IMG/VR virus record: IMGVR_UViG_3300032242_001030
Span: 1 to 39,978 of that record
Origin: a virus
Strand: one strand, 5' to 3'
DNA length: 39,978 nt
Shown here: in pieces, positions 7,501 through 36,788 of the stretch
How the letters are laid out: every line of letters begins with the position of its first letter
Position numbering within the stretch: position 1 is the stretch's first letter
The notes under the pieces: generated by a model
Told to the model about the DNA's origin: nothing
Databases searched by the model: none
Seen by the model: the letters and a program-made list of their open reading frames with translations, nothing else
Position numbers and translations under genes: made by a program

Positions 7501-10500
7501 CGCTGAGCATTTAGAAGACATTATGGAAGCCGCCAAAGAAGAGCTTGGCGCAATCTATCCCGAAGCGTTCAAAGATTTGTATGAGTTTGTTAGTTATGCC
7601 ATGACAAACAAGTCCTTCCAAGATATGCTTAGAGAACACGATACAAGTGCGCTTAGCTCTACAATGATTCCTGAGTCTAAGTCTTTATGGTCAGAATTCA
7701 TGACCAGTGTAATTAAAACACTTGGGCTGCTAAAAGATTTCTTCAAAGGCAACAAGCCTCTTGAGACAGTAGATAATTTATTTATTGAGACTACTGCGGC
7801 ATTTGAAAAGATTTTATCTCCCCCGCCAGAAGAAGGACTTAATCTAAAACGATTGCCAACGGCGCAAGTTAAGCAAGCGCCTCCTACTGTTGAACGTAAT
7901 TTCGATCAACTTGTAGAGCAACAAATACTGCCTGAGAAAGCTAATGTAAGTAAGATAAAAAATTACTTAACTTCTACTACGGGCATGGTAAAACTTGTTT
8001 CTGTATTTCAGAATAGCCGTTATGCAATTAAGTTTTGGCAAGATGCCCTAGATCGTGCGGGTAAAATTATTGTGGATGGCCCAAAACTAAATAACATTTA
8101 TACGCAGATTGCGTTGGCTGGTGGCACATCTAAGTTCTTGTATTCAAAGTTTATAAGCAACCCGTATGGTGATTTGCAAAATTCTATTGGGGAATATGTA
8201 GACGCTACAGGTGGGGATGTAGACGTTGCTTTGAAGAAGTTAAATTTGTTTATGAGTGCTTTCCATGAGGGAGAGCGCCGTGATGTTAAGTATATGATGA
8301 ACGTGCCATTGAGCACTGACACTGTACAGAACTTGGCTGGCACTGGATTAAATATTAGTCCTGCTAATTTCCGTGATGCTGTACTTAAAAAAATAGACTC
8401 AGGCACTTTAAAAAGTAGCCAAGAAGCCGTCAATCTACGTAAAGATTTAGATGTAGTCGTGGCAAAATATGCTGACCCTACTGGGCATAGTCCTGCTGGA
8501 TACAAGTCTGTAGATAGAAACAGTACTGATTACAATGTAATTGGTAAGATGACTTCTAATGAAGTTGAGACTGTTAAAAAGAATATAGACAATCCAGAAA
8601 TTGTAAATAAGATTAGAAAAGCCGTTCAAGAGTTACATAGATCAACTATTGAACTTAATAAGCAGTCTAACTATTGGTCTAAGCCTGTACAAGATGTTGT
8701 TGATTTTTACGGCTGGAAAGACTACGTGCCTTTTAAAGGTAAGGCAAATGCTCCTGTTGGGGCAAATGATGATTTGCTTAATTTTGATAGTAAGCGCCGA
8801 GGTGGGGACTTACAAGAAGGACAGAATCCTTTTGGAGGCCGTGAATCATTCTCTGAAAATGTATTGATTCAAACTTTAAGCGATGCAGTTAGATCAGCAA
8901 CTAGGGCTGGTAGAAAAAATCTAACCCTAGCAATTAAGAATGCCGTAACTCCTGATGAAAAAGGTAATAAGCTTTTGCACGGAGAAGTATATAAAACAAT
9001 ACTATTCTCTGAGCGCGCTACTGTTAACCTTGATGAACTAAAAGGACAGAATGTTATATTCCATTACAACGAAAATGGAACAATTGATATTATTAAAGTA
9101 GATGATACTGCTAAACTTGAAGCTATCCGTAAAACTTATAAAGATACCAATCCAATTGTTCAGCAACTAAATAATCTTACAAGTGGTGTTGGTATGTACC
9201 ATACTCGGTACAACATGGCATTTGCGCCAGTAAACTTCGTAAGGGATGCATTAACTAATGCTTTCTATATTGGTATTAGTAAAGGTGCTGGGGCTTCTGC
9301 TGATTATTTAGGCAACATCGCCATGAAAGTTGCTAATGGTGGTTTGTATAAAGCCAATCAAATTGCCCGCATGTATAACAACGGAGATGTAAAAGGCATA
9401 GAAGCACTTGCCAAGAGTGACAAGTCAGGATATGTTAAAGACATGCTTGAGTATTTAGAGCGTGGTGGTATGGTTTCATTCCTAGATGGCTTGACTGTCA
9501 AAGGAGGCTATAACAACTTAAAGACTGAATTAACTTCAAGCAATACCAAAATAGCTTTGAATGCTTTTAATAAATTCTTTGATGGGTACATGGATACGTT
9601 TGAATTGGCAAGTAGGGTTGCCGCATACAAAACCATGAAAGACCAATACCTCAGAGAAAATATGTCGCAAGAAGCGGCAAAGACACGGGCAACGGATTAT
9701 GTGAAAGGTCTAGCTAACTTTGAACAAGTTGGTGAATGGGGCAAAGAAATGGGTGCGGTATTCATGTTCTTTAGGCCCGCGGCTACAGGCGCTGTACGTG
9801 CTATTGAAGCATTAGGCCCTATGTTGCGTAGTACTGAAACTGCTATTAATGATTTGCCTGAGCATATAAGAAATGATAAAGATGCCGTGGCTATCTTCCG
9901 TCAATCACATGAAAGACAACGTGAAGCGGCAAGGGCTATGTCTATGGGTTTGGCTGGTGTTGGCGTAGCGTTCTACATGTTGGCATTTGCTGGTGCTGGT
10001 GATGACGATTTAGGACGTAATAAAGTAGCAACAGATGATATTAATCGTTGGACTCGCTATGGTCGTATCTTTATTCCTGGAATGAAAGAGCCTCTTCAGT
10101 TGCCTTGGGGTTATGGTATGGGTTCTTTTGCTGCCTCTGGAGCGCAAGTGGCTGCCATGATGATGGGGCACGCTTCATTCAAAGATGGATTTAACAACAT
10201 CTTAGAGATCGGCATGGATTCTTTCCTACCATTGCCACAGTCTCGTATCAACAAGTTCGACAACTTCCCTGCATGGTTGATGGATTCTGCAACACCATCT
10301 CTTTTGCGCCCTTTCTTTGAATACCAGATGAACATGGATGGATTGGGTAGAAAGATCTATAGTGACAGACGTTCTAGAATGGCAGATGCATACTCTGCTG
10401 GTAACAACATTCCTGAACTGTGGAAAGATGCGGCAAGAATTTTATATAACATAACAGACGGAGCAATTGATTGGACTCCTAACACGATGTACTTTTTTGC

Positions 10501-10957
10501 CAATAATTATGCAGATGGTTTAACTCGCTTGGCGCAAGATGGTCATGGGTTTGCTATGTGGGCAACTGGGGAGAAAGACTTTAATCCTCGCACAGATACA
10601 ATTGCGTTTGATAGTTTCTTTGGCGCACCATCTAATTATGACTCACGTCAATTTAGTGCCCTTGAGGGTAAGGTAGAGGAGATGTCTAAGATAATATCTA
10701 CACTACCAAAAGCTAACCCAGAAATGTTTGGACGTTTAGTTGAGGCTAGGCCAGAGATGCTGGCAATAGTGGATGACTACAATAAAACTATAGGTGGCGA
10801 TCTGAAGGATCTAAGGGAGCTTGCAAAGCAAATTAATATTATGCCTGGCCTCTCATATAAAGAGCGTAAAGAAATAATAGATAACATTACACAGGCAGAG
10901 AATTTAGAGAAGTATGCGTTTATTCAACGCATGAAAGCATACGGACTAGAGCCCTAG
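4547..10957 (+). CDS. Giant internal virion / polyvalent-type protein with HEXXH peptidase motif
   Basis: The protein has 2136 residues. The N-terminal 30 (ALPDGNTVEFPDSVTPDKA) match the 'LPDG..VEFPD' opening common in large phage internal proteins. About 130-350 is Ala/Gly-rich and hydrophobic and could interact with membrane. About 360-600 is a Pro/Glu/Thr-rich linker. Residues 951-955 are HEVVH, with E1013 in YEFVSYAMTN as a plausible third zinc ligand, as in the metallopeptidase domains of large polyvalent proteins. From about 1540 onwards the sequence (GMYHTRYNMAFAPVNFVRDA...) resembles the C-terminal LPD38-type region of those proteins. Such proteins are thought to be injected with the DNA and to protect or process the incoming genome. 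No clear ribosome site precedes the ATG, which lies two bases after the upstream stop, so coupled translation is likely. Role inferred; peptidase motif seen directly. Confidence 0.8.
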   Translation: MAYTIALPDGNTVEFPDSVTPDKASEILKKQFPEFGAKEVGIGDYPRVLGSSLLSGIGGLAQFPGQVKGLIQGDFSSNPLWVNQAQKLQEYGQSLKPEGLKTREAIRNKAIEEASKKGFVSELTTAAGQTLTDPALATSFFAEQLPEQLPAILAGILGPEASGSVALARAAAKKAVGEAAKKKAEEEAIKQGVKVGARAAVGTGAIQQGADVGAQTYKDLYDALIEQGASPEKAAAGAINAARAAGASGAIISVLAQNLPGAQAMEKAIIGKVLGKEGTGIGRIAGAGLSALKEIPSEMVEEGGGKFTQNLAMREVNPQQPLMQGVGTAAGLAAAGAGLMGGTVGALTSGKKTPPTNINLPNAPNTEETPTTTEPAGPPRTTAELLAEEAAPAAKEEAAPIEEVKKEAPAKGSVEELQSIIEKTKQDLAKQQDDIAKGAYKSPAHLASKQKIVNDLTRDLTSYEETLAKRLATGETNVREPIAGEGGAGAGVPSGTSTNVPSAEGTTGTETAGMVSAGEAVPSAIAGKEEPSVALTPPKEGEATSVIETTQAKQTEEKGQKTTPAPAPSINPPKAEINKEIRDQESAIGKRYDEERDLSKFADDQSINLYEATSKGTLPPDQQLGSARLNATLKANGLTEPELSDDYDDMSPADQEKDRKRVIDEIATQLESKRSVLPDWTSLTRDAKDVFLANLKNNTPAQREKAREALSSYLKKIKEVQGTPTEVKAAPEAGIYERNRQTYKSKDRLEYPTWDQLTDAQRKIYTDKLLELAPKNKKGKPDIKKTTAEHHDAAFKAVADNLLTEGYIPKPGMTYADVRSMQLKQSEKTSLERAQKEIEEESDTKAVQEEMRKESEVALNKTIPSQKPKFLPESLIKNIKAGKFDALLNYLTSVVKDKSYRAIAKEIQKLGLKTKIKVVDKLPHGDIAVYDPKIDTILTTPEGLQDETMMHEVVHAATTNVIYKYLNYVKKGKKTGGLTLEQIDAAEHLEDIMEAAKEELGAIYPEAFKDLYEFVSYAMTNKSFQDMLREHDTSALSSTMIPESKSLWSEFMTSVIKTLGLLKDFFKGNKPLETVDNLFIETTAAFEKILSPPPEEGLNLKRLPTAQVKQAPPTVERNFDQLVEQQILPEKANVSKIKNYLTSTTGMVKLVSVFQNSRYAIKFWQDALDRAGKIIVDGPKLNNIYTQIALAGGTSKFLYSKFISNPYGDLQNSIGEYVDATGGDVDVALKKLNLFMSAFHEGERRDVKYMMNVPLSTDTVQNLAGTGLNISPANFRDAVLKKIDSGTLKSSQEAVNLRKDLDVVVAKYADPTGHSPAGYKSVDRNSTDYNVIGKMTSNEVETVKKNIDNPEIVNKIRKAVQELHRSTIELNKQSNYWSKPVQDVVDFYGWKDYVPFKGKANAPVGANDDLLNFDSKRRGGDLQEGQNPFGGRESFSENVLIQTLSDAVRSATRAGRKNLTLAIKNAVTPDEKGNKLLHGEVYKTILFSERATVNLDELKGQNVIFHYNENGTIDIIKVDDTAKLEAIRKTYKDTNPIVQQLNNLTSGVGMYHTRYNMAFAPVNFVRDALTNAFYIGISKGAGASADYLGNIAMKVANGGLYKANQIARMYNNGDVKGIEALAKSDKSGYVKDMLEYLERGGMVSFLDGLTVKGGYNNLKTELTSSNTKIALNAFNKFFDGYMDTFELASRVAAYKTMKDQYLRENMSQEAAKTRATDYVKGLANFEQVGEWGKEMGAVFMFFRPAATGAVRAIEALGPMLRSTETAINDLPEHIRNDKDAVAIFRQSHERQREAARAMSMGLAGVGVAFYMLAFAGAGDDDLGRNKVATDDINRWTRYGRIFIPGMKEPLQLPWGYGMGSFAASGAQVAAMMMGHASFKDGFNNILEIGMDSFLPLPQSRINKFDNFPAWLMDSATPSLLRPFFEYQMNMDGLGRKIYSDRRSRMADAYSAGNNIPELWKDAARILYNITDGAIDWTPNTMYFFANNYADGLTRLAQDGHGFAMWATGEKDFNPRTDTIAFDSFFGAPSNYDSRQFSALEGKVEEMSKIISTLPKANPEMFGRLVEARPEMLAIVDDYNKTIGGDLKDLRELAKQINIMPGLSYKERKEIIDNITQAENLEKYAFIQRMKAYGLEP

Positions 10958-22203: not shown

Positions 22204-22363
22204 TTTTATTCTCCTCTCGTTTGTCGTTATTGATTAGAAGCCAGTTATCACCGACCATTCTTATTGCTCTGATCCATGCGCGGATGTTCGCGCGTTGTTG
22301 ATGGTAAGGTATGTAATCCAAACACCATAATTCCCTTGCGCGTTTAAGCATTACTGTATTCAT
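22181..22363 (-). CDS. Small basic hypothetical protein
   Basis: The protein has 60 residues, rich in Arg and Trp (KRARELWCLDY, RANIRAWIRAIRMVGDNWLL). No family was recognised. It overlaps the nuclease gene upstream by four bases and the next gene by 23 bp, which leaves some doubt whether the whole frame is translated. Confidence 0.5.
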   Translation of the reverse strand: MNTVMLKRARELWCLDYIPYHQQRANIRAWIRAIRMVGDNWLLINNDKREENKSGNHSNT

Positions 22364-22656
22364 TTTGCTTTCTCCAGTATGAGTTGTTTAAGTATTCCTA
22401 CATTGTGTTCATCAATGAGTAGTGCTATGCCACCCTGACGCTCTATATCGTCTAAGTGCATTTGTTGTAGTCGAGTAGGCTTGCCACCTTTTGCCTTGCA
22501 CTCGATGCCTATGAACCATCCGTTGTAACAACATAATATATCGGGTACACCCGAGTTTCCGAATCCACCTGTTAGTGGACTCGTATAGTACGCGCCTAGT
22601 TGCGCCAAGACTAATTTAACTTTGTCTTTTACTTTTGACTCGGGTGTTTGCGCCAT
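22360..22656 (-). CDS. VRR-NUC family nuclease
   Basis: The protein has 98 residues from the ATG at MAQTPESK. The longer frame that runs into the upstream gene is rejected. The VRR-NUC pattern is complete: G-V-P-D39-I, a short strand, then G-I-E52-C-K54, with S/T-PLTGGFGNSG before it and a terminal helix after. Stand-alone VRR-NUC proteins of this size occur in many phages and cut branched or flapped DNA. It is likely a replication or recombination endonuclease, possibly a Holliday-junction resolvase. No strong ribosome site is visible. Confidence 0.88.
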   Translation of the reverse strand: MAQTPESKVKDKVKLVLAQLGAYYTSPLTGGFGNSGVPDILCCYNGWFIGIECKAKGGKPTRLQQMHLDDIERQGGIALLIDEHNVGILKQLILEKAK

Positions 22657-22660
22657 GATG

Positions 22661-23587
22661 TTATTCTGCGTGTAAGGGAATGAGGGTGACCAATGCACTA
22701 TTCCTAGATGCCATTGATACATCTATATCGGGATAGAAACGATCTCTAACCATTATGCCTAACGCATTTTCTTCATCATAGTAATTCTTGTTACTCTGAA
22801 AGTATGTACGGATCATTGATGCGACCCCTGCAATAGGACTATCTGAAATAGAGTTATAACGCTCTAATGGTTTGGTGAATGTAATATCGTTGGGCATAGA
22901 TCTATATGTGTCGAATGTCGCTTCACCGATCAACAGTCCATCATTAGCTTGATTGATACTTGAGTATCTGTATGGCATCTTCACTACTATGCAACCCTTT
23001 GAGTATCGTTCCAATGTTTTCTTGCCATTGTCAAGTTCGCCCAATCCTTTAAGATACTTATGATAAGTATTTTGTACATCATCTATATTGAATGGTGTTG
23101 TTGTAGGTACTTTGAGTATGTATTCAATCATGCCAAGTGCCTCGTCACTACTGCAAGATATTTGAGGTTTACGCTTTTCATTCACATTATTGAACGCGTC
23201 TCTAATTGCGCCTTTGTATGAGTCAAATATTTTTGATTCATCGGGACTCTCACTATTTTTCTTTATAGTTTTTATAAGAGATGTTATCTTGTTTGAATCC
23301 CTTGAATTAGAATCAGAGTTTGCGCTTGCCTTCTCTTTAGTGATGATTCCATCACATCGATATACATAGATGGGATCACCATCCTTGTGCTTAATTAGCA
23401 ATTCACCAAGTGGTATTCCACGCTTAGATAGAACATTGATTTTCTTTGATGAATTATCATACGCGATAGCTTTAACATCGAATGTATGACAGAACTCCAT
23501 TGTGAGTACCTTCAGATCATTGTTTGATTCCAATACTTCTGATAAGTATTCCATGTTAGCAAATTGTGATGCTACTTTTTCAATCAT
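22661..23587 (-). CDS. Unknown 308-residue protein of the MoxR/VWA region
   Basis: The N-terminal 90 residues are mixed alpha/beta. About 88-110 is a Ser/Asn/Asp-rich linker, and the C-terminal 150 look globular (KGCIVVKMPYRYSSINQAND..., GVASMIRTYFQSNKNYYDEE). No catalytic motif was seen and no family is recognised. It is the last gene of the segment that also encodes the MoxR ATPase and the metallopeptidase/VWA protein, separated by short gaps, so a link to that machinery is plausible but only by neighbourhood. Confidence 0.7.
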   Translation of the reverse strand: MIEKVASQFANMEYLSEVLESNNDLKVLTMEFCHTFDVKAIAYDNSSKKINVLSKRGIPLGELLIKHKDGDPIYVYRCDGIITKEKASANSDSNSRDSNKITSLIKTIKKNSESPDESKIFDSYKGAIRDAFNNVNEKRKPQISCSSDEALGMIEYILKVPTTTPFNIDDVQNTYHKYLKGLGELDNGKKTLERYSKGCIVVKMPYRYSSINQANDGLLIGEATFDTYRSMPNDITFTKPLERYNSISDSPIAGVASMIRTYFQSNKNYYDEENALGIMVRDRFYPDIDVSMASRNSALVTLIPLHAE

Positions 23588-24529: not shown

Positions 24530-25729
24530 TTAGTTGTTGAATATAACTTTCTTACCACTTGGAACATCCCAATCCTTGTTCTCTGTAACGAACCACAGAG
24601 TAGGTGCGCTGATTTTCCATTCCACTTCGCGCTCGACATAACCATCTGTGAATACAATCACGCATTCCGCGTTGATCTTCTTCTCATTGATATATTCCGA
24701 TACACACCCAACTTTCGTTCCACCCCCACCTAGAGGCTTGAGCATACCTCCGATGTTCTGATAATTGTTAGTAAAGATTTGCTCACCATGAACCATTGTG
24801 TCCCACCACAGAACCCGAACCGAATCGGGCTCAACCAATTCACAGATAGATACCAGTTCTGTTGCGAACTCATTGATCTGTTCCTGTCCAATAGAACCTG
24901 ATGTGTCGATGGCAACCACCACCTCGCCAATGGTCTCGTTCTCAACTGTCGGCAGATAGATGTCGCTAGGCAACAGTCTCCTATTGAACCTTCTCCATGT
25001 AAACTCATCCTTGCCCTTACATGATGCAGTTACAAAGTCTCTTAACGCTTCGCGCCAATTAACCTGTGGTGTAAGAATATCTGTAATGGCTCGTGGCAAG
25101 TCGACCCCTAAACGCCCTGCGAGTAGTGCGCCTTCGCGTAATGCTCTATCTACCTTGTCGTTCATATCTTTCATGTCTTCAGAGCTTGCATCGCCATCGA
25201 TGTCATGGTCATCGAACTGATACTCTCCATCGTTTGATTGTCCACCCTTGCGTGGATTACCTCCGCTACCTCCACCTCCATTCTTCTCCTCTTCCTCAAG
25301 GAGTTTGTATACCTGTCTCATAGACATGTTATGGTACTTGGGGTCATAGCATCCACCTTCAGGGAGCTTGCATAAGGTTTTGTCCTGTAAAGAAACTATT
25401 ATGTCATTGACCACATAGTCGGCGGCTTTATTGGCACGCGCTCGATCTTCCTTGAACATATCCATGCCATGTATCATGTGTCGCAATGCCACATGAAGAT
25501 TCTCGTGCAACACCAAAGCATTGATCTCACTATCATCCTTGCAATGTGTCTCCAAGAACTTTCTACCATACATCTTGTTACCCTTGGTATCGGCGCATGC
25601 AGTCATGCCCTCCTCGTCTACTACTTTCGTAGTTCCCATCATCATCACACCCGAATAGAGTGCGGTCTCGGGATGCTTCATCATCTTGATGTGTGCGCGT
25701 TTGATGCGCTCTTCTTGCGTTAATGCCAT
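24530..25729 (-). CDS. Metallopeptidase-like plus VWA domain protein (MoxR partner)
   Basis: The protein has 399 residues from ATG at MALTQEER, with GGAG nine bases upstream; the longer frame is less likely. Residues 75-79 are HENLH, an HEXXH zinc motif, in an N-terminal domain like the DUF2201 putative metallopeptidase. About 145-190 is a Gly/Asp-rich linker. The C-terminal VWA-like domain has VVVAIDTSGSIG (MIDAS D275, S277, S279) and a later IVFTDGY. This pairing of peptidase-like and VWA domains is regularly found beside MoxR ATPases. The VWA domain would bind a target while the ATPase remodels it. Often annotated as CobT-like chelatase; no cobalamin role is indicated here. Confidence 0.88.
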   Translation of the reverse strand: MALTQEERIKRAHIKMMKHPETALYSGVMMMGTTKVVDEEGMTACADTKGNKMYGRKFLETHCKDDSEINALVLHENLHVALRHMIHGMDMFKEDRARANKAADYVVNDIIVSLQDKTLCKLPEGGCYDPKYHNMSMRQVYKLLEEEEKNGGGGSGGNPRKGGQSNDGEYQFDDHDIDGDASSEDMKDMNDKVDRALREGALLAGRLGVDLPRAITDILTPQVNWREALRDFVTASCKGKDEFTWRRFNRRLLPSDIYLPTVENETIGEVVVAIDTSGSIGQEQINEFATELVSICELVEPDSVRVLWWDTMVHGEQIFTNNYQNIGGMLKPLGGGGTKVGCVSEYINEKKINAECVIVFTDGYVEREVEWKISAPTLWFVTENKDWDVPSGKKVIFNN

Positions 25730-25730
25730 G

Positions 25731-25832
25731 TTACTTTCTCCATACAAATAAATCTAAAATCAAAACTACAAATGCTAGTATGTACACAATAGCAAAGTAG
25801 CACCTTACTGGGTCATATTTCATATACTTCAT
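25731..25832 (-). CDS. 33-residue membrane peptide between MoxR and VWA genes
   Basis: Below common ORF length cut-offs. The MoxR stop TAA is followed by GGTGGAACA-ATG, an excellent ribosome site, and the TAA of this peptide ends one base before the VWA ATG. The protein starts MKYMKYDPVRCYF, followed by a hydrophobic helix (AIVYILAFVVLILDLFV) and ends WRK. Its 3' end supplies the GGAG ribosome site of the VWA gene. One transmembrane helix with positive ends could anchor or regulate the module at the inner membrane. Translation is well supported by the start context; function is unknown. Confidence 0.75.
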   Translation of the reverse strand: MKYMKYDPVRCYFAIVYILAFVVLILDLFVWRK

Positions 25833-25841
25833 TGTTCCACC

Positions 25842-26948
25842 TTATGATAGAAGAATGTGGTTCTCTGTTGCCCACTTCATGATTGCATTGTTATACCTAC
25901 CGAGCTTGGGCTTGGTGTGCATAATCATTGTGAAGAATATCGCTTGCACCTCGGCTTGGGGAATGCGTTCCACGAACTCCATATACTTGTTTAACTCATC
26001 CTGTGTGTCGAGCTTGTCTACCGCCTCGAACATCATCATGATAAGAGCTGATACTTCATCAGGTACTTTGACTTGCTTGGGGTTAGCCAAAATAGTCTTG
26101 AATTCCATCAGCTTACCTTCTAATTGAATAAACGCTGACATTGATCTCGCACCCGCTTCGCCGATAGTACCCGCCAATGCAACCATCAATGCGTGTTCGG
26201 AGATCTGATCCTTGCGGTCAACAAGTACAGATGCTTTCGCTAATGATCTTGGAGACACGAATTGTTTTACAGTTGACGATGGCTTAAAGATAAACTCATT
26301 GTCTGCCTGATTCGGATCAAGATAAGACTTGAATGCCTTGGTGTTCATCGATGCCCATGCCCTGACTGCCCTTGCGAGCTTGTTCTTGGTTGCCCAAATG
26401 TTCCACTCTTCATGGTTCGGCTTACGCATATTGATTACAGTCACACGATTACCCACATGACCTAGCATTGAATCGCCCACACCATCCGATGCATTATTAG
26501 ATGTAGCGAATAGTTTCGATCCACCTTGTAGTGGACGATCACCTGCTGTTCTTTCTAAGATCAACCTAGTGAAGATGATCTGCAAGAGCTTAGGTGCTTT
26601 CATAAACTCATCGAGCATGATGACCTTGGGCTTATTACTATTCATCTTGAACAAGTCTGATACATAGTACTCGAGAGTGCGTGTCTGATGGTTCGGGATA
26701 CTCGCCGCGACATCCATCATATCTTTAACAGGACAGTCTACATAGATGTAGTCGTACTTGTCATCCTCACACACATCGCCTACTTTGCGCCATGCGTCCC
26801 CATGCATAGATGCAATCATAGACAATAGCGAGCTCTTGCCAACACCAGGTTCAGAGACTACGATAGGTGTGATTGAATCACCCATTGCATGAATCAATTG
26901 TGCAGTCTCATCGATAGAGACATTCATTGTGAAATTTACTTGTGACAT
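25842..26948 (-). CDS. MoxR-type AAA+ ATPase
   Basis: The protein has 368 residues. Walker A is VVSEPGVGKSS (K38), Walker B is KVIMLDEFMKA (D113, E114), and FATSNNASDG follows as sensor 1 with an arginine-rich segment (GHVGNRVTVINMRKP) after it. The C-terminal half is helical. This fits the MoxR/CobS-like AAA+ group, which works as a hexameric remodelling ATPase with VWA-domain partners. The VWA partner is the next large gene. The leader before the ATG contains a 16-bp sequence repeated before another gene at 29386. Phage roles of such pairs are largely unknown. Confidence 0.9.
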   Translation of the reverse strand: MSQVNFTMNVSIDETAQLIHAMGDSITPIVVSEPGVGKSSLLSMIASMHGDAWRKVGDVCEDDKYDYIYVDCPVKDMMDVAASIPNHQTRTLEYYVSDLFKMNSNKPKVIMLDEFMKAPKLLQIIFTRLILERTAGDRPLQGGSKLFATSNNASDGVGDSMLGHVGNRVTVINMRKPNHEEWNIWATKNKLARAVRAWASMNTKAFKSYLDPNQADNEFIFKPSSTVKQFVSPRSLAKASVLVDRKDQISEHALMVALAGTIGEAGARSMSAFIQLEGKLMEFKTILANPKQVKVPDEVSALIMMMFEAVDKLDTQDELNKYMEFVERIPQAEVQAIFFTMIMHTKPKLGRYNNAIMKWATENHILLS

Positions 26949-26972
26949 ATTAATACTCCAGTTGGTTAAGGT

Positions 26973-27881
26973 TTAGTTGAATGATTTAAGGGGTGCAAAC
27001 TTACTCAGCATATCGTCCACATTGTCTTTAACAACACTACGAACATATGCACTCTCGCGTAGATCCTCTACGCTTATGTCCTTCAACGCACTCTCTAGTT
27101 GTGCGCGTGCTTCCTCCAGTTGAGGATTGTTTGTTAGATTAAAGTCTCTCAGGGTGTTACATAACTCCTTTGCTTGGCTAATGGTTGTGTCATAGATCTT
27201 CTTACGCTTTACCTTTCCATCCTCCTGTGGATCGCTCTCAGTACAAGCATTACTGATTCGGCTTGCAATCTCAATGAGTCGCTCACTCGCATCGCCCATC
27301 ACTTGATCGATGATCTCTGTGACTTGCTTCTCATAATGCTTCTTTAGATCTTCTGCAATTACATCGCTGATGTTGGATCTAAAGTCGTTTGTTGGTACTT
27401 GAGTCACGAATAACTTAATTCTGAACTTACTACGAACCTGAGATACATCGGGATATTCCGATCTATCAAACATATCTCCCTGTTTAAAAGCGGAGTTGCT
27501 GACGATGTTGGGGTACTCGTTGCAAAAGTTGTCCAATAACTTGTCAAACTCAACTTCATGTTGTCTAAACTCATTTGTGAACTTCTCGATGTTGCACGAT
27601 GGAAGCAATCTCATGTTGCCACTCCAGTCATAGGTGGAACGCTGAAGCCAGTTATAGACTGTCTGACGATAGTTGAGCAATGACTTATGCTCGGGAGAAT
27701 TGGACAATAAATTCTTGGTGAACTTGCCCGCATCGACATCAGCTTTCTTCATGGTTGTTACTTCATTAGAGATCGCTTTGTCTTGCTTGGTAGCAGTCCA
27801 CACATTTGTTTCTACATTAACTATTAATGCAGAGGTTGAGAGGGATATGATCTGGTTCGGTTGTGTTAGTTCAAAATTCAT
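26973..27881 (-). CDS. Unknown helical protein at head of MoxR/VWA group (DUF3150-like)
   Basis: The protein has 302 residues, mostly helical and charged, with LLNYRQTVYNWLQRSTYDWSG in the first third and long K/E-rich helices after residue 170. Its size, helical nature and position just before a MoxR ATPase and VWA protein match the DUF3150 proteins found in similar three-gene sets on mobile elements. I cannot confirm the family from sequence alone. It probably forms part of the same complex. It ends 24 bp before the MoxR start. Confidence 0.65.
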   Translation of the reverse strand: MNFELTQPNQIISLSTSALIVNVETNVWTATKQDKAISNEVTTMKKADVDAGKFTKNLLSNSPEHKSLLNYRQTVYNWLQRSTYDWSGNMRLLPSCNIEKFTNEFRQHEVEFDKLLDNFCNEYPNIVSNSAFKQGDMFDRSEYPDVSQVRSKFRIKLFVTQVPTNDFRSNISDVIAEDLKKHYEKQVTEIIDQVMGDASERLIEIASRISNACTESDPQEDGKVKRKKIYDTTISQAKELCNTLRDFNLTNNPQLEEARAQLESALKDISVEDLRESAYVRSVVKDNVDDMLSKFAPLKSFN

Positions 27882-28347: not shown

Positions 28348-28587
28348 TTAATCCAATCTGTGAGTTGATAGATCTAATGTGAGTAATTCGTAAGAGTGGG
28401 ATTGCCCAAGCTCTTGCTCATCGCCTTGGATGCAGAGATGCATCTCATACTCGGCAGTTGGTAAGTCCACATAGGCATGGACTGGTTTGCCGTTGCACAT
28501 GAGTACATGTACTGTTGGAGTTATTACTGGGGGCTCAACGCCATCGGCATCAAGCATCTCCTCCCAAAACCTTTTCATCTTTCCCAT
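28348..28587 (-). CDS. Small hypothetical protein
   Basis: The protein has 79 residues. The middle (VHVLMCNGKPVHAYVDLPTAEYEMHLC) is beta-rich, resembling short phage proteins with unknown roles. AAAGGAAATAGT precedes the ATG, and a copy of the dispersed inverted repeat lies 32 bp upstream, in its leader. No family was recognised. Confidence 0.65.
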   Translation of the reverse strand: MGKMKRFWEEMLDADGVEPPVITPTVHVLMCNGKPVHAYVDLPTAEYEMHLCIQGDEQELGQSHSYELLTLDLSTHRLD

Positions 28588-28618: not shown

Positions 28619-28636
28619 TTCCACTATGGCGTGGAA
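28619..28636. repeat. Dispersed inverted-repeat element, copy 1
   Basis: TTCCAC-TATGGC-GTGGAA: perfect 6-bp arms and a 6-bp centre, identical in the whole 18 bp to copy 2. It is followed on the plus strand by CG, then diverges from the other copies. It lies in the leader of the 79-residue gene. Confidence 0.85.
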
Positions 28637-28680
28637 CGATTAAGTAACTGTGTTGAAAGATTGCTCTCCCAACAGATTCA

Positions 28681-28691
28681 ATTGTACCATA
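28681..28691 (-). promoter_or_regulatory. Possible extended -10 promoter
   Basis: On the minus strand TATGGTACAAT contains TACAAT with an upstream TGG, matching the extended -10 form. No good -35 hexamer is at the right distance. It would start transcription near 28674, placing inverted-repeat copy 1 within the 5' leader of the 79-residue gene. Weak evidence. Confidence 0.35.
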
Positions 28692-28714
28692 ACTTTACTA
28701 ATAAACATAGGGAT

Positions 28715-28921
28715 TTACCCTAACTTTGTTAAGGTATCAACCCACTCTGATATTTTATTGGCTATTTCTTTTTCTCTTTCACCCGCGTAATCTCTGAACA
28801 GAGTTAGCAGTAGTTGTGATTCTTCTAACCTACCATTTAATACCCATTTGAGCGCAACCCTACATACTGCCGTAAATTCTTCTTCTAACTCTAGATGGGC
28901 TTGATACTGTTCGTAGTTCAT
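28715..28921 (-). CDS. Small helical hypothetical protein
   Basis: The protein has 68 residues, helical and charged (YQAHLELEEEFTAVCRVALK, GEREKEIANKISEWVDTLTK). AAAGGAAACAAC precedes the ATG. Its stop sits inside the small dyad TAGGG-N5-CCCTA (28708-28722), which might serve as a weak terminator. No family was recognised. Confidence 0.6.
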   Translation of the reverse strand: MNYEQYQAHLELEEEFTAVCRVALKWVLNGRLEESQLLLTLFRDYAGEREKEIANKISEWVDTLTKLG

Positions 28922-28985
28922 GTTGTTTCCTTTAAAAAGTTTATTGAATTGTTTGGCAAGTCTGGCAAGGGATTCGTCTCGCCTG

Positions 28986-29381
28986 TTAATTGTTTAGTTG
29001 ATACTCAAGCTCACAGAGGATCGCATCTTGCATCTCGTCATCCTCATCGCTGATGTTGCCATCGATATAGTCCCTGACCTGTGCATGAACATATGAATAC
29101 TCGTCCACCTCATCGTGGAACACATCCTCACCAAACTCATGCTCGACTGTGTTGAGCGCGTAGTAGTCCGCATCGCCATCAAATGATGCAGTAGCAAACG
29201 CATCGCTGATGAAGTTGTCCACATCGCCGAATCTGATTGACTCTGCATTTCTTGCCTGTGATATGTATTTCGTACGATGTTTTCTTAGTACAGATAGTTT
29301 GCATGTAGATCCGACTTGCTTGCCTTGCGCCAAGTCACTCGCAAGGAATGGCAGTTGAGGACAGAGGAAAAAAGCTTTCAT
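28986..29381 (-). CDS. Acidic hypothetical protein
   Basis: The protein has 131 residues. The first 45 are neutral to basic (MKAFFLCPQLPFLASDLAQG, KLSVLRKHRTKY). The rest is extremely acidic, with many Asp/Glu (FISDAFATASFDGDADYY, ISDEDDEMQDAILCELE). Strongly acidic small phage proteins sometimes mimic DNA, but there is no further evidence. ACTGGAGTATCACA precedes the ATG, a leader shared with the MoxR gene. A copy of the inverted repeat lies 47 bp upstream. Confidence 0.65.
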   Translation of the reverse strand: MKAFFLCPQLPFLASDLAQGKQVGSTCKLSVLRKHRTKYISQARNAESIRFGDVDNFISDAFATASFDGDADYYALNTVEHEFGEDVFHDEVDEYSYVHAQVRDYIDGNISDEDDEMQDAILCELEYQLNN

Positions 29382-29385
29382 TGTG

Positions 29386-29401
29386 ATACTCCAGTTGGTT
29401 A
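29386..29401 (-). repeat. Repeated 16-bp translation leader (second copy at 26953-26968)
   Basis: TAACCAACTGGAGTAT is identical ahead of this acidic-protein gene and ahead of the MoxR gene. A related version (AACCAATGGAGTCAT) precedes the 302-residue gene at 27884. It contains the GGAG ribosome site, so the conserved part extends well beyond what ribosome binding needs. Confidence 0.7.
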
Positions 29402-29427
29402 GTTAGTTGATAAAATGATGAGATAGA

Positions 29428-29445
29428 TTCCACTATGGCGTGGAA
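29428..29445. repeat. Dispersed inverted-repeat element, copy 2
   Basis: TTCCAC-TATGGC-GTGGAA, preceded by GA and followed by CGCTGACCCAAGGGCTAG on the plus strand. The flanks match copies 3 and 4 for over 20 bp. A second dyad TAGGCAA-N8-TTGCCTA follows at 29461-29482. Confidence 0.9.
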
Positions 29446-29882
29446 CGCTGACCCAAGGGCTAGGCAAAGTGCTAATTGCCTAACCAAATTGAATTTTAGC
29501 AGAATAGCCACTTCATGGGTATGGTTTTGGGTAAGTTTGTTGGGGGAAGGGTAGAGAGTTTGTATAGTTTGGTGAAAAAAGGTGGAATTTTAGGTGATTT
29601 TTGGAATTGGAGTAGAATTTCAATTTTGTGTTGAAAGTAATACTAGAGTACACATAGTGGTATATATTTAGTATATAAACTAATAATAATATAATATATT
29701 ATTTAAGAAGAAAAGAGAGAGTATTACTGCAATTCCAAAATTCCATAATTCTAGTGGGTTTTGGTTTTGGAAAGGGAAGTAAAAATGATGTGGGGTTTTG
29801 CACTTGCTAAAAGACTCTTGGTCTTTAAAATATTACTTCTTTCCCTGAGTGCTGAAAAAAATTGGAATTTTGGAATTAACAT

Positions 29883-29891
29883 TGTGGATAA
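29883..29891 (-). promoter_or_regulatory. DnaA box (perfect TTATCCACA)
   Basis: TGTGGATAA on the plus strand is the exact complement of the strongest E. coli-type DnaA box. It lies 49 bp from a second perfect box in opposite orientation. Confidence 0.7.
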
Positions 29892-29940
29892 CCTTGTTTT
29901 ATCTTTGTAAATCAATAGGTTACATCAGTTCCAAAATGAG

Positions 29941-29949
29941 TTATCCACA
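29941..29949 (+). promoter_or_regulatory. DnaA box (perfect TTATCCACA)
   Basis: Exact match to TTATCCACA, facing the box at 29883. Two perfect boxes this close in a gene-free AT-rich region are unlikely by chance. Confidence 0.7.
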
Positions 29950-30079
29950 AGCTAAAAATAGAATTTCGTTGGAATTATAGAATTTTATGGAATTTATACT
30001 TTGATTACCCAATGATGCGTAATTCTAAAATTCTAAAACCAATTCCAAAATTCTATTCGCTTTGGAATTATGGAATTGA

Positions 30080-30155
30080 TTCCACTATACCGTGGAACGC
30101 TGGGTCAAGCTCTAGCTCACGCGTTGGCGCGCGGGGACACATAACTGGTTTCAAA
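30080..30155. repeat. Dispersed inverted-repeat element, copy 3 (long form)
   Basis: The core TTCCAC-TATACC-GTGGAA is followed by CGCTGGGTCAAGCTCTAGCT, a GC-rich segment and GCGGGGACACATAACTGGTT. The whole 75-80 bp block aligns with copy 4. It lies between the candidate origin and the terminator of the next minus-strand gene. Confidence 0.85.
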
Positions 30156-30167
30156 AAGTCTGGACGC

Positions 30168-30202
30168 AAAAAAACCCCGCCAGACCAAAGCCTGACGGGG
30201 TT
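30168..30202 (-). terminator. Intrinsic terminator of the 211-residue gene
   Basis: Minus strand: AACCCCG-T-CAG, an 8-base loop, CTG-G-CGGGGTT, then five further T residues (seven in the full T-run), 11 bp after the stop. It is a strong GC stem with a T-run, a textbook rho-independent terminator, isolating the candidate origin from transcription coming from the right. Confidence 0.9.
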
Positions 30203-30212
30203 GAGTTAGTAA

Positions 30213-30848
30213 TTACTTACTATTCTTAGCTAGTGCATCATTAAATGCATCAATTGCCATTCTTAAAGCCAATTCACTAGGTGCTGTTGTGTCACCGCGC
30301 TGTTCCGCTGTCTTACGGCGCGCTTTAACTGTCACCCAGATACCCTTTTCTTTGTTGCTCATAAAGTCAAAGAACTCAGCGGGAGGCACTTTAGACTTAG
30401 AGGTTTTGTCCAAGTCACGAATTGACTTTTTAATGTCAGCGATTCTATTAGAAACATAGGTACTGAAGTCATTCCTGATTTTCCCAATGATTCCCTTTTT
30501 TACTGGGTCATCAATAGCGCCGAATGCTTGTTGTGTGTAAGACATACAATAGGCGAGAGTCGCATTGTGCAAGCCGTTTTTACCATCCTTGGTGGGAATC
30601 CAATCGGCGGTGTACATTACGGCGGGGTTCAATTCTTGCCATCTAAGAGCAAAACCATCCTTTAACTCATTCTTAACTTCATCGGGTATACCCTTAGGGT
30701 CTAAAAATGATGGGCAATTTTCAATTACATATTGGGCAATTGTCGCGCCTCTCTCTTTGTTTAACGCGGTCTGATAACCCGCTGATTTAAAAGAGGTAAT
30801 TTCAATTGAAGGGATAGCGTTAGCTATTGGGGTCTTAGTTACTTTCAT
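30213..30848 (-). CDS. Unknown 211-residue protein with own promoter and terminator
   Basis: Start ATG follows TTGGAGTATTTT; an in-frame TTG 12 bases earlier is part of the ribosome site. The protein is mostly helical with a globular look (GYQTALNKERGATIAQYVIE; IRNDFSTYVSNRIADIKKSI; WVTVKARRKTAEQRGDT). No family was recognised. It forms a single-gene unit: promoter, gene, strong terminator. This arrangement suggests early, separately controlled expression. Confidence 0.7.
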   Translation of the reverse strand: MKVTKTPIANAIPSIEITSFKSAGYQTALNKERGATIAQYVIENCPSFLDPKGIPDEVKNELKDGFALRWQELNPAVMYTADWIPTKDGKNGLHNATLAYCMSYTQQAFGAIDDPVKKGIIGKIRNDFSTYVSNRIADIKKSIRDLDKTSKSKVPPAEFFDFMSNKEKGIWVTVKARRKTAEQRGDTTAPSELALRMAIDAFNDALAKNSK

Positions 30849-30903
30849 AAAATACTCCAAAAAAAGATTAATAAAACACTGATTATTGCTAACCAGTGAT
30901 TCG

Positions 30904-30932
30904 TTTATACTTGATCTATAACTTTAAAACAA
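30904..30932 (-). promoter_or_regulatory. Sigma70-like promoter of the 211-residue gene
   Basis: TTGTTT (30927-30932), a 17-bp spacer, then TATAAA (30904-30909) on the minus strand. Inverted-repeat copy 4 ends two bases upstream of the -35 box, in position to act as an activator or repressor site. Confidence 0.65.
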
Positions 30933-30934
30933 GA

Positions 30935-31012
30935 TTCCACGGGGTAGTGGAACGCTGACTCACGCGCTAGCTCAACGCGCGGGCTTCGCGAGCGGGGACA
31001 AATAACTGGTAT
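30935..31012. repeat. Dispersed inverted-repeat element, copy 4 (long form)
   Basis: The core TTCCAC-GGGGTA-GTGGAA is followed by CGCTGACTCACGCGCTAGCT, a GC-rich palindromic segment (GCTTCGCGAGC) and GCGGGGACAAATAACTGGTA. It matches copy 3 over almost the whole block, although the six central bases differ completely. It lies between a terminator and the promoter of the next gene. Confidence 0.88.
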
Positions 31013-31034
31013 CAAAAGGGCCGAAGCCCTTTTG
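31013..31034 (-). terminator. Intrinsic terminator of the 74-residue gene
   Basis: Minus strand CAAAAGGGC-TTCG-GCCCTTTTG: nine-pair stem with a UUCG tetraloop, one base after the stop codon. The T-tract lies in the stem's 3' arm and there is no further T-run. It could work on both strands. Confidence 0.75.
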
Positions 31035-31035
31035 G

Positions 31036-31260
31036 TTATCGATCAGTCCTACCAATCCAATCAGCGCCGATTACATGTGGATAGTATTCCGTTTTCCACT
31101 TGTTCTCAACAAACATAATGCCAACCCGCCCAGTCGATGCGCGTGTGTGTGGCTCTGTGATGTACTCAACAACAGCTTTGCCAACAGAATGTCTGTCACT
31201 GATGTGTACAATATCACCTGTCTCTACAGGCTTGAGGGTATCCAAATAAACTAATTGCAT
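31036..31260 (-). CDS. Small hypothetical protein
   Basis: The protein has 74 residues, mostly beta-like: LKPVETGDIVHISDRHSVGK, then GRVGIMFVENKWKTEYYPH. The 'GDIV' entry and short strands suggest a small barrel (SH3- or KOW-like), but no family was confirmed. CTGGAGATTGCT precedes the ATG. It lies between two intrinsic terminators and no clear promoter was found, so it may be expressed by read-through. Confidence 0.65.
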   Translation of the reverse strand: MQLVYLDTLKPVETGDIVHISDRHSVGKAVVEYITEPHTRASTGRVGIMFVENKWKTEYYPHVIGADWIGRTDR

Positions 31261-31279
31261 AGCAATCTCCAGTTAAGTT

Positions 31280-31304
31280 AAAAAAAGGGAGCTGTCACCT
31301 CCCT
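31280..31304 (-). terminator. Intrinsic terminator of the 149-residue gene
   Basis: Minus strand AGGGAG-GTGACAG-CTCCCT followed by six to seven T residues, ten bases after the stop. A convincing rho-independent terminator. Confidence 0.85.
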
Positions 31305-31313
31305 GTCGACTTA

Positions 31314-31763
31314 TTAGTCGCAGACTATTTCGTATTTCTCAACAGTCTGTAGCTCCGTACCAACCAACACCTTACGGCAGGTTGGACTGTCATCTCTTAC
31401 ATAAGCGCTGATTGCCCCTGAGTAAGTAGCAGACTTGAACCTGTAATCCCTGTTAACGGCTTGGGCCCAGTCTTGGGTGTTCATGTTATCCATTGTTTCC
31501 GAGAGATAACCTAACACCTTCATTAACCTTTCATCTTTGAAAGAGTCTAGGTTGTACATAGCAACATACACATGGGGCATGTTGTTGTTCTCCATCAGGT
31601 ACATACGATCCTGGGCGTCAAGCATCTTGTCTAATGCTCTCAACACCTTACCGATCATCTTGCGGTTAGCTTTGATGGTGTTTAAACGCTTAGTAGCTTG
31701 TGCTACTGAGTACGATGCACTTTCAATTGCCTGTGCGTAGGCTTGTGTTGCTCTGCTTTGCAT
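31314..31763 (-). CDS. Unknown 149-residue early protein
   Basis: The protein has 149 residues. The N-terminal 50 form a helical, Ala/Gln-rich and then basic segment (AYAQAIESASYSVAQATKRL); the rest is mixed alpha/beta. No family was recognised. It is the first minus-strand gene from the divergent region, with a good promoter, AGGAGG ribosome site and its own terminator. The layout suggests strong early expression, as for host-takeover proteins. Confidence 0.7.
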   Translation of the reverse strand: MQSRATQAYAQAIESASYSVAQATKRLNTIKANRKMIGKVLRALDKMLDAQDRMYLMENNNMPHVYVAMYNLDSFKDERLMKVLGYLSETMDNMNTQDWAQAVNRDYRFKSATYSGAISAYVRDDSPTCRKVLVGTELQTVEKYEIVCD

Positions 31764-31808
31764 AGCATCCTCCTGTTAATCGGTTGCACTATTGCTTCCG
31801 ATGATTAA

Positions 31809-31837
31809 GTTATAGCTGATGGCGCTATGAAAATCAA
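31809..31837 (-). promoter_or_regulatory. Sigma70-like promoter of the 149-residue gene
   Basis: TTGATT (31832-31837), a 17-bp spacer and TATAAC (31809-31814) on the minus strand. A damaged copy of the inverted repeat lies two bases upstream of the -35 box, the same distance as at the 30904 promoter. Confidence 0.7.
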
Positions 31838-31839
31838 AT

Positions 31840-31861
31840 TTCCACGGGGAGCTGACCCACC
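31840..31861. repeat. Dispersed inverted-repeat element, copy 5 (degenerate)
   Basis: TTCCACGGGG is followed directly by AGCTGACCCAC. Compared with copy 4 (TTCCACGGGGTAGTGGAACGCTGACTCAC with the middle bridging), the right arm TAGTGGAAC is missing. It looks like a deletion of one arm. Confidence 0.7.
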
Positions 31862-34244: not shown

Positions 34245-36788
34245 ATGGCAACAAACATGGACAAGTCACTTTACACCCAATTAATGCCTGATTTGGTGGG
34301 TGAAGAACCAGATTTACAGATAGAGATAGCAACAGATGAGGAGCCAGCCCTAGCAGATGGCTCAATTGAGGTCATTTTAGAGGAAGAAAAGGGTGAAATG
34401 ACCAGTAAAAATCTTGCTGAAGACATGGATGAGAGCGAGTTAATGAGCATAGCGAGTGAGCTAGTTGGGCTTGTAGATGCCGATATTTCCTCTAGAAAAG
34501 ACTGGGTTGAGGCTTATGTCAAGGGTTTAGAGGTCTTAGGTCTGAGATATGAAGAAAGAACCGAGCCTTGGAATGGGGCATGCGGTGTTTATTCAACTGT
34601 ATTGACAGAAGCTGCGATCAGATTCCAGGCGGAGTCTATTATGGAGACATTTCCTCCAGCAGGCCCAGTCAAAACTGAGATCATTGGCGCGATAGATAAA
34701 CTGAAAGAGCAAGCAGCCAAGCGGGTTCAAGACGATATGAACTACGAGCTGACTGAAGTCATGCCTGAGTACAGACCCGAGCATGAGAGGATGCTGTTTA
34801 ATTTGGGACTGGCTGGATCGGCGTTTAAGAAAGTATATTTTGATCCAAGTTTGGGCAGACAAGTATCGATGTTTGTACCCGCAGAAGATGTGATTATTCC
34901 TTATGGATCGAGTGGCGTGAGAACCGCAGAGCGCGTGACTCATGTGATGAGAAAAACAAAGAATGACATCAAGAAGCTACAAGCTGCTGGATTCTATAGA
35001 GAGATTGAGTTAGGCGAGCCCATACAAATCCACACAGATGTGGAGAAAAAGAAAGCAGAAGAGCAAGGCTATTCGCTCACAGACGATGATCGTTATCAAA
35101 TCCTTGAGATTCAAGTGGACTGGATACTTGATAAAGCTGACAGAGAAGAAGACGAAGAAGTTGCTGAGCCTTACATCATTACGATTGAGAGAGGATCTAA
35201 TAAGGTCTTGTCGATTTATGAGAACGATAAGAAAGAAAGCAAGGGTGAGTTTAAGCAGAAGAGAAATCACTTTATAGACTATTGCTACATCCCAGGCTTT
35301 GGTGCTTATGGTATGGGTCTGATCCACATCATCGGTGGATACGCCCGCGCGGGAACGTCACTTATCAGACAGTTGGTTGACTGCGGCACGCTGTCTAATT
35401 TGCCAGGTGGTCTGAAGTCTAGAGGACTCAGAGTAAAAGGGGATGACACACCCATCGCCCCAGGCGAGTTCAGAGACGTTGATGTTCCAAGCGGATCGAT
35501 AAAAGACAACATCATGGCGTTGCCATACAAAGAGCCATCACAGGTTCTGTTGGCGTTGTTAAACCAGATCACGGACGAGGCAAGAAGGCTTGGATCAATA
35601 GCTGATATGAAAGTTAGCGACATGTCTAGCCAGGCCCCAGTCGGTACAACATTGGCTCTCCTTGAGAGGCAGTTGAAGGTAATGGGCGCGGTGCAAGCGC
35701 GGGTACACAACTCAATGAAAGAAGAGTTTAAGTTACTCAAAGAAATCATCAGAGACCACACCCCCAGCCAGTATGACTACGAGCCAGTAGACGGTAAAAA
35801 GTCGGCTAAGCGTGAAGACTACGACATGGTAGAGGTTATACCTGTCAGTGATCCGAACACATCCACGATGGCACAGAGAATTATGCAGTATCAGGCTGTG
35901 ATGCAGCTCTCACAACAGGCTCCTCAGATCTATAATTTACCACAGTTACATCGCCAGATGATTGACGTCTTGGGTATACCGAACGCGGAAAAGCTTGTAC
36001 CGATAGAGGACGATGAGTTGCCTAAAGATCCGATCAGTGAGAACATGGGCTTTCTCAATGGTTCTCCGAACAAGGCGTTTATATATCAGGATCACGATGC
36101 ACACATCGCAGTGCATACAACATTTTTACAAGACCCGATGATTGCTCAACAAATGGGGCAGAACCCGATGGCTCAACAGATGGCGTCAGCCGTTCAAGCG
36201 CATATCGCATCACACTTGGCCTTTTTGTACAGACAGAAGATTCAGGATCAGTTGGGCATGCCCTTACCTGCACCCGACCAGCAGCTTCCCGAAGAGGCAG
36301 AAGTACAGTTGTCTCAGTTGGTGGCACAGGCCAGTACACAGTTGCTACAGCTTAACTTGGCGCAAGCTCAACAGCAAAAAGCCCAACAACAAGCACAAGA
36401 TCCGATCATCCAGATGCAGCAGCAAGAGTTGCAGATTAAAGCGCAGGATGCTCAGACTAAAGCTAAAAAGGTTGATGGTGACTTGGCACTTAAAGCACAA
36501 GAGATTCAGCTCAAGGCTCAAGAAATGCAAAGTAAACAACAGGGCGAGAATCCTGAAGTGATGAAAGCGCGTCATGCGATAGAGCTTGCTAAAGCTCATC
36601 AACAGATGAACCATGCACAAGAGCAACACAACATGAACTTGATGCAGAACGAGCAAGCAGCGCAACAGCAGTTAAAGCATGGCAGACAAAAACATGTGAC
36701 TGACCTTGTGACTCAAGCGGAGAGAGCTAAAGTTCAGATGGAGTTGGCTAAACAACAAGCGGCTAATAAACCTAAAGGTAACGTATGA
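34245..36788 (+). CDS. Portal protein
   Basis: The protein has 847 residues. After an acidic N-terminus comes SRKDWVEAYVKGLEVLGLRY, then EPWNGACGVYSTVLTEAAIR and RFQAESIMETFPPAGPVKTE, as in large P22-like portals of environmental podoviruses. A clip/wing region follows, then a core with GAYGMGLIHIIGGYARAGTS and PVGTTLALLERQLKVMG. The last 200 residues are a very Gln/Ala-rich coiled coil that may form the barrel reaching into the capsid. It forms the ring through which DNA enters. Position after the large terminase supports this. The end overlaps the next ATG. Confidence 0.93.
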   Translation: MATNMDKSLYTQLMPDLVGEEPDLQIEIATDEEPALADGSIEVILEEEKGEMTSKNLAEDMDESELMSIASELVGLVDADISSRKDWVEAYVKGLEVLGLRYEERTEPWNGACGVYSTVLTEAAIRFQAESIMETFPPAGPVKTEIIGAIDKLKEQAAKRVQDDMNYELTEVMPEYRPEHERMLFNLGLAGSAFKKVYFDPSLGRQVSMFVPAEDVIIPYGSSGVRTAERVTHVMRKTKNDIKKLQAAGFYREIELGEPIQIHTDVEKKKAEEQGYSLTDDDRYQILEIQVDWILDKADREEDEEVAEPYIITIERGSNKVLSIYENDKKESKGEFKQKRNHFIDYCYIPGFGAYGMGLIHIIGGYARAGTSLIRQLVDCGTLSNLPGGLKSRGLRVKGDDTPIAPGEFRDVDVPSGSIKDNIMALPYKEPSQVLLALLNQITDEARRLGSIADMKVSDMSSQAPVGTTLALLERQLKVMGAVQARVHNSMKEEFKLLKEIIRDHTPSQYDYEPVDGKKSAKREDYDMVEVIPVSDPNTSTMAQRIMQYQAVMQLSQQAPQIYNLPQLHRQMIDVLGIPNAEKLVPIEDDELPKDPISENMGFLNGSPNKAFIYQDHDAHIAVHTTFLQDPMIAQQMGQNPMAQQMASAVQAHIASHLAFLYRQKIQDQLGMPLPAPDQQLPEEAEVQLSQLVAQASTQLLQLNLAQAQQQKAQQQAQDPIIQMQQQELQIKAQDAQTKAKKVDGDLALKAQEIQLKAQEMQSKQQGENPEVMKARHAIELAKAHQQMNHAQEQHNMNLMQNEQAAQQQLKHGRQKHVTDLVTQAERAKVQMELAKQQAANKPKGNV

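Follow-up and report, generated by a model that had tools for sequence, protein, structure and literature searches.

The DNA analysed here (the window) is the whole 39,978-base virus record IMG/VR IMGVR_UViG_3300032242_001030, a fragment of a larger phage genome in which a short palindrome, TTCCAC-N6-GTGGAA, recurs among the early genes. The terminase of this phage is nearest to those of phage DSL-LC04 and of the HMO-2011-like pelagiphages HTVC027P and HTVC023P (49-53% identity). The minus strand carries the early and replication genes, which extend from about 31.8 to 11 kb of the window. A gene triad encoding a MoxR-type ATPase, a DUF3150 protein and a VWA protein occupies positions 24530-27881 and is conserved across these phages; in the open-licence literature, we found no paper that deals with DUF3150 together with phage. 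The gene p215 (30213-30848, minus strand), which starts with an ATG at 30848 (the open reading frame was listed from a TTG at 30860), is located between two of the palindromes.

A scan of all 39,978 bases found perfect palindromes at the four places given by an earlier note on this sequence and nowhere else: site 1 (28619-28636; TTCCAC-TATGGC-GTGGAA), site 2 (29428-29445), site 3 (30080-30097) and site 4 (30935-30952), all assigned to the minus strand. The central bases were also as claimed (TATGGC, TATGGC, TATACC and GGGGTA). The note had counted a family of five; however, its damaged fifth copy at 31840 has only one arm (half-site 31840-31845, minus strand), and the family as a whole had been undercounted. 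Allowing up to two mismatches gave 14 matches compared to 1.4 expected, and the core TCCAC-N6-GTGGA occurs nine times compared to 0.05 expected from a Markov model of the window (18-mers starting at 22563, 25240, 26519, 28619, 29103, 29428, 30080, 30935 and 35028). The core arms combined with any other spacer of 0 to 15 bases yielded zero or one copy each, and only the six-base spacer was enriched.

Site 1 lies 32 nt ahead of gene 28348-28587, and site 2 lies 47 nt ahead of gene 28986-29381, at the edge of an AT-rich stretch. Site 3 is found past the p215 terminator, at the opposite edge of this stretch, and site 4 lies in the p215 leader and ends 2 nt ahead of the -35 box. The remaining five core sites fall within genes. 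Four of these are on the minus strand: a one-mismatch site (29103-29120) within the 131-aa gene 28986-29381, and core sites within gene 22360-22722 (22563-22580), within the VWA gene at about residue 167 (25240-25257; relatives with other arms have a site there too) and within the MoxR-type ATPase gene (26519-26536). The fifth (35028-35045, plus strand) lies in the portal gene (34245-36788); it is the sole core site outside the minus-strand early region, and its function is doubtful. The earlier description of the copies as following terminators and preceding minus-strand genes was borne out in part: site 3 has a good terminator ahead of it (30173-30202) but some 600 bp of AT-rich non-coding DNA after it, and five of the nine core sites are gene-internal. 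The reported two-base distance to a -35 box was confirmed on the minus strand for site 4, at the predicted p215 promoter (30904-30932; TTGTTT-17-TATAAA), whose -35 box lies inside the right outer arm of the site, and for the half-site at 31840, at the predicted promoter of a 149-aa gene (31809-31837; TTGATT-17-TATAAC).

The AT-rich non-coding stretch between sites 2 and 3 (29446-30079) contains many ATTCCA/TGGAAT repeats and two consensus DnaA boxes (29883, minus strand; 29941, plus strand), and it is a probable replication origin. In several relatives, a similar TTCCAA-rich stretch follows a palindrome.

With two proteins of the window, we fetched 160 related loci. A scan of a sequence collection for TTCCAC-N6-GTGGAACGCTG returned one true relative (L009); four other matches, located in GC-rich, coding-looking DNA, were taken as chance. 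Among annotated phages, region 30060-31060 had only short chance matches at the DNA level, and the open-licence literature yielded nothing on the palindrome. The relatives were also searched with a palindrome count that was blind to the arm sequence, for which 82 loci surrounding DUF3150, the window and L009 among them, were used. An arm type was called when at least three copies with at most one mismatch were present, and four weak loci (L060 and L064-L066) were set aside. Few relatives have TTCCAC arms; many repeat an arm of their own several times, mostly with a spacer of six. For 76 of the 82 loci, an arm type reaching this threshold was obtained, with up to ten copies; when the loci were shuffled, the maximum was two copies. 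About 20 arm types were found in the relatives, including TTCCAC, TCCCAC, TTTCAC, TTTCAG, GTTCAG, CTTCAG, CGTCAG, CTTCCG and GTTCAA as well as TATCGG, ATTCGG, AGTCGG, TGTCGA, TGTCGT, CGTCGT, TGTAGT and TCCCGT. Where long contigs are rich in exact copies (G013-G015, G024, G025 and G029), these copies lie within one early segment spanning about 8-10 kb; a small number of outliers occur in other contigs.

The places of the sites are kept between phages, while all copies in a genome switch arms together. A site at window residues 157-173 of the VWA gene was detected in 24 phages of ten arm types, sites inside the DUF3150 gene recur at residues 115, 143, 148, 175 and 213, and 22 phages have a site 25-34 nt ahead of DUF3150. 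Copying of DNA would not leave such a pattern, and a trans-acting reader of changing specificity would. The pattern therefore points to a protein-DNA code and not to an RNA stem or a mobile cassette. This agrees with the earlier proposal of one regulator acting on several small early genes: the arms are constant per genome, the sites are kept in relatives and the copies change in concert. A lack of arm conservation in relatives had been put forward as a refutation. Such a test would have been misleading, as what relatives conserve is not the arm sequence but the presence of sites and the 6-N6-6 architecture.

A second palindrome, CTTGAC-N6-GTCAAG, was observed in relatives of the TCCCAC/TTCCAC group (L009, 11300-11345; L100; L049-L063). 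It overlaps the -35 box of promoters that resemble strong sigma-70 promoters and precede early genes.

The sequence logo of the larger clade reads TTAwwTArCG, a 6-base arm, G N4 C, a 6-base arm and a weaker mirror of the outer arm. The outer arm on the sense side is conserved, A/T rich and stronger upstream; outside leaders and triad genes, it lies on the sense upstream side at 120 sites compared to 31 on the opposite side. Its three best positions on the upstream side scored 2.8 of 3 in p215 leaders, 2.4 at other sites and 2.1 inside genes (random, 0.8). On these scores, the outer arm is more than the stop codon of the preceding gene. The sites of the window retain part of it (TCAGCG), and the centres of the inner and outer arms are about ten bases apart, equal to one helical turn. 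Sites with one mismatch showed 20 sense-strand G.U pairs compared to 46 A.C pairs. This lack of a G.U preference on the transcribed strand argues for double-stranded DNA as the target.

Sites are enriched 10-40 nt ahead of a Shine-Dalgarno sequence and start codon. In nearly all p215 leaders, the -10 box of the best promoter match starts 23-28, 14-18 or 5-8 nt past the palindrome, and the full site touches the -35 box, the spacer or both. Overlap at several distances suits occlusion better than activation. Together with the sites between and inside genes, these varied placements favour a repressor and roadblock over an activator, and a repressor/roadblock role in early transcription is the function that best fits the positions of the sites.

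Which protein might read the sites was addressed by comparing protein and arm divergence. A p215 homologue is present at 56 of the 82 loci. Among pairs of phages with 75-90% DUF3150 identity, p215 was 65% identical when the core arms were equal (45 pairs) and 27% identical when they differed (8 pairs). None of the other proteins dropped in the same pairs (equal/different core arms: MoxR, 80/79%; VWA, 66/71%; p71, 63/76%). The partial correlation between p215 and arm distance, given DUF3150 and MoxR, was 0.25, a value reached by 0 of 1000 permutations. The p215 of the window clusters with that of TTTCAC, TTTCAG and GTTCAG phages, whose core is one step from TTCCAC, whereas the DUF3150, TerL and p71 of the window are nearest to those of TATCGG phages. 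In a second clade (L070-L089), the first early gene belongs to one family in TGTAGT phages and to another in TGTCGA phages, with a 41% member of the latter for TGTCGT; the CGTCGT and TCCCGT phages each have an unrelated singleton. These data make p215 the probable reader of the sites. Searches of p215 against Pfam, PHROG and PDB sequences gave no match of note. A structural model built from 44 sequences was confident (mean pLDDT, the predicted local distance difference test score, of 88.8) and mostly helical. Comparison with the PDB and with viral models gave no structural neighbour at E < 0.001. p215 is thus a family without a known relative by sequence or fold.

Several observations weigh against this assignment. 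Arm parsimony hardly separates the gene trees, with 14 steps required for p215 and 15 each for DUF3150 and MoxR. A genome-wide test of 34 orthogroups was dominated by ancestry and picked out neither p215 nor DUF3150. L032 and L091 share the TTTCAG arm, yet their p215 proteins are 38% identical, so that both variants would have to read the same core. The comparison of different cores rests on 8 pairs, and generally fast evolution of p215 could lie behind part of the signal. Moreover, the p215 model has no recognisable DNA-binding fold, and the position of some sites would suit a sigma-70 activator as well.

The helix-turn-helix (HTH) proteins that the earlier note had named as potential regulators did not hold up as candidates. 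The protein at 20749 has no homologue in any other contig compared, the one at 21588 was recovered in two contigs, and the one at 14011 is widespread and does not track the arms.

The palindromes could also be operators of a phage protein other than p215, either DUF3150, which would form a remodelling machine together with the MoxR ATPase and VWA proteins, or another early protein. DUF3150 is 95% identical between two TGTAGT phages and 72-74% identical to its counterparts in CGTCGT or TCCCGT phages, with no such drop for MoxR and VWA, and its partial correlation with the arms, given MoxR, was 0.38-0.40. Repeated palindromes were absent from kin without DUF3150 (DSL-LC04, HTVC027P and HTVC023P), and phage MinM2 has both the MoxR-DUF3150-VWA triad and a palindrome of its own. 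However, the DUF3150 correlation fell to 0.01 once p215 was included along with MoxR, and the DUF3150 of the window is nearest to that of TATCGG phages, whose core arms differ. Strong in one clade, DUF3150 was not singled out among the 34 orthogroups and lost its signal after p215 was accounted for; it was set aside as the favoured reader (its single-sequence model was poor and was not used). We regard a reader other than p215 as a rather unlikely alternative. Still less probable is an activator role, in which a phage protein would bind directly ahead of the -35 box and turn on early or middle promoters. It would explain why the palindrome ends 0-3 nt ahead of a weak -35 box in many p215 leaders, and likewise at 30935 and 31840 in the window, but where the -10 box starts 5-8 or 14-18 nt past the palindrome, the bound protein would occupy the place of RNA polymerase, and the many sites 10-40 nt ahead of start codons between genes, or inside genes, leave no room for a promoter.

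Sites for replication, partition or packaging (parS-like or origin linked) would be in keeping with the two palindromes that flank the AT-rich stretch with its two DnaA boxes and with the sites inside genes. The start codon bias, the overlap with the p215 promoter and the outer arm lying mainly on the sense upstream side are at odds with such a function, which we consider improbable. RNA hairpins in early mRNAs, serving in processing, translation control or as N4-like hairpin promoters, appear very unlikely. The transcribed strand can fold the palindrome (z of about -2 to -2.6), but a mere stem would not need arms that are constant per genome. We rejected the RNA stem, as imperfect copies have no G.U excess (the 20 compared to 46 noted above) and none of the Rfam families scored up to its gathering threshold. 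For N4-like promoters in particular, the 2136-aa protein encoded at 4547-10957 has no RNA polymerase match (in a contig that is partial); its sole domain match is LPD38, near the C-terminus, and searches against PHROG and the PDB were negative. The recombining mobile cassette suggested in the earlier note has the least to recommend it. Copies 3 and 4 do share extra sequence, with gaps, out to ACCAGTTAT-N-TGTCCCCGC, as had been pointed out; a conserved ACCAGTTAT-N-TGTCC element lies upstream of site 4 (30992-31010, minus strand), with a second copy upstream of site 3 (about 30130-30149). However, this shared stretch is a longer composite (ACCAGTTAT, a GC-rich spacer and the palindrome) that precedes p215 in many relatives with other arms, and the gene-internal positions are conserved as well. 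With places kept and spelling changed across relatives, recent transposition was rejected, and we give the idea of a moving repeat hardly any weight.

The ACCAGTTAT element is itself strand specific in the relatives (109 sense compared to 10 antisense copies, with about 4 expected). It usually lies 40-70 nt ahead of a palindrome, just past a terminator.

Taken together, the palindromes may be operators of one phage-encoded regulator, with p215 as the reader and a repressor or roadblock as the mode of action; for this combination as a whole, we put the chances at about even. Each phage type would have its own operator spelling, made up of two 6-bp arms separated by a 6-bp spacer and of the weaker outer arm TTAwwTArCG, and a cognate protein that reads it. 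The p215 product would control its own promoter, and occupied sites at promoters, ahead of ribosome sites and inside early genes would shut off or pace early transcription. Because the arms differ even between close relatives, the regulator would be expected to be type specific, in the manner of an immunity repressor. It is conceivable, although we would not yet bet on it, that these seemingly virulent phages have an immunity-like, self-specific operator code in which p215, as a new family of DNA-binding proteins, and all sites switch together while the site positions are kept, giving about twenty types that would not be expected to cross-regulate.

A tyrosine integrase or serine recombinase domain was found in none of 20 related contigs, whose records may be partial. 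Among 84,980 bacterial and archaeal genomes, a relative of DUF3150 gave one match, in a short contig of a metagenome-assembled genome. Both results are at most suggestive of a non-lysogenic life style; these phages might also be lysogenic in a plasmid-like state. As for the ends of the record, a tandem 15-nt repeat of CCACCGCCGCCACCT at positions 1-110, the extreme left end of the contig, probably marks where the assembly stopped.

If the proposed code is real, these phages would offer about twenty natural, related protein-operator pairs in which to study how DNA specificity evolves where many dispersed sites have to change at once, as well as a new DNA-binding fold. They would also provide a route to understanding why phages without evident lysogeny need type-specific repression, be it for the timing of early genes or to keep out relatives that co-infect the cell. 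Typing of these uncultured phages is another possible use of the arm code.

Among annotated phages, MinM2 (OQ594354; L178), together with Pag-Yong1 and Pra-JY27, resembles the present system in having MoxR-DUF3150-VWA genes and a palindrome family of its own, 18 copies of GTTCAG-N-CTGAAC, many of them about 20-25 nt ahead of start codons. It differs in the 15-bp site with a spacer of 1, the GC-rich genome and a first early protein that is not recognisably related to p215. The three records of this type are named for different cyanobacterial hosts, yet have the same length (65,014 bases) and the same matches, and their stated host may be doubtful. We found no MinM2 or Pag-Yong1 paper in the open-licence literature.

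Cluster K mycobacteriophages have start-associated sequences (SAS) and extended SAS, repeats at start codons that are partly accompanied by upstream inverted repeats (PMC3203893). The tie to start codons is shared; however, SAS are asymmetric and overlap the ribosome site, and a spacer of variable length separates their inverted repeats, each of 17 bp. Closer in appearance are the Cluster O phages (Corndog), in which a 17-bp palindrome, TGTTCGG-N3-CCGAACA, occurs in more than 30 copies with invariant arms and a variable centre, many of them before or inside genes, and for which a dimeric regulator was suggested by the authors (PMC4351075). Arms and spacing differ from those described here, the five Cluster O phages represent one arm type, and neither a concerted change of arms nor a candidate reader was reported there.

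Cluster A mycobacteriophages (L5, Bxb1 and Trixie) encode immunity repressors that act on operators and stoperators, and their types differ in both (PMC6550527, PMC9283540). As would be the case here, one phage protein acts on numerous short sites, which are found in promoters, in intergenic DNA and elsewhere and for the most part point in the direction of transcription; the phages studied here have 3-10 sites per genome compared to about 30 in Cluster A, and their orientation derives from the outer arm alone. In Cluster A, site and repressor diverge together between types. Here the arms vary between phages and p215 tracks them, but arm parsimony does not tell the gene trees apart. In contrast to the 18-bp palindrome with outer arms, the stoperator is a 13-bp asymmetric site read by a monomer through an HTH and a second domain; p215 matches neither an HTH nor the stoperator domain, and none of the related contigs searched contained an integrase. 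Judged by analogy, the system described here would work most like the Cluster A stoperators and looks most like the Corndog palindromes. We do not assign it to either, given its symmetric site with outer arms, a candidate protein that is not recognisable as an HTH homologue and the lack of evident lysogeny.

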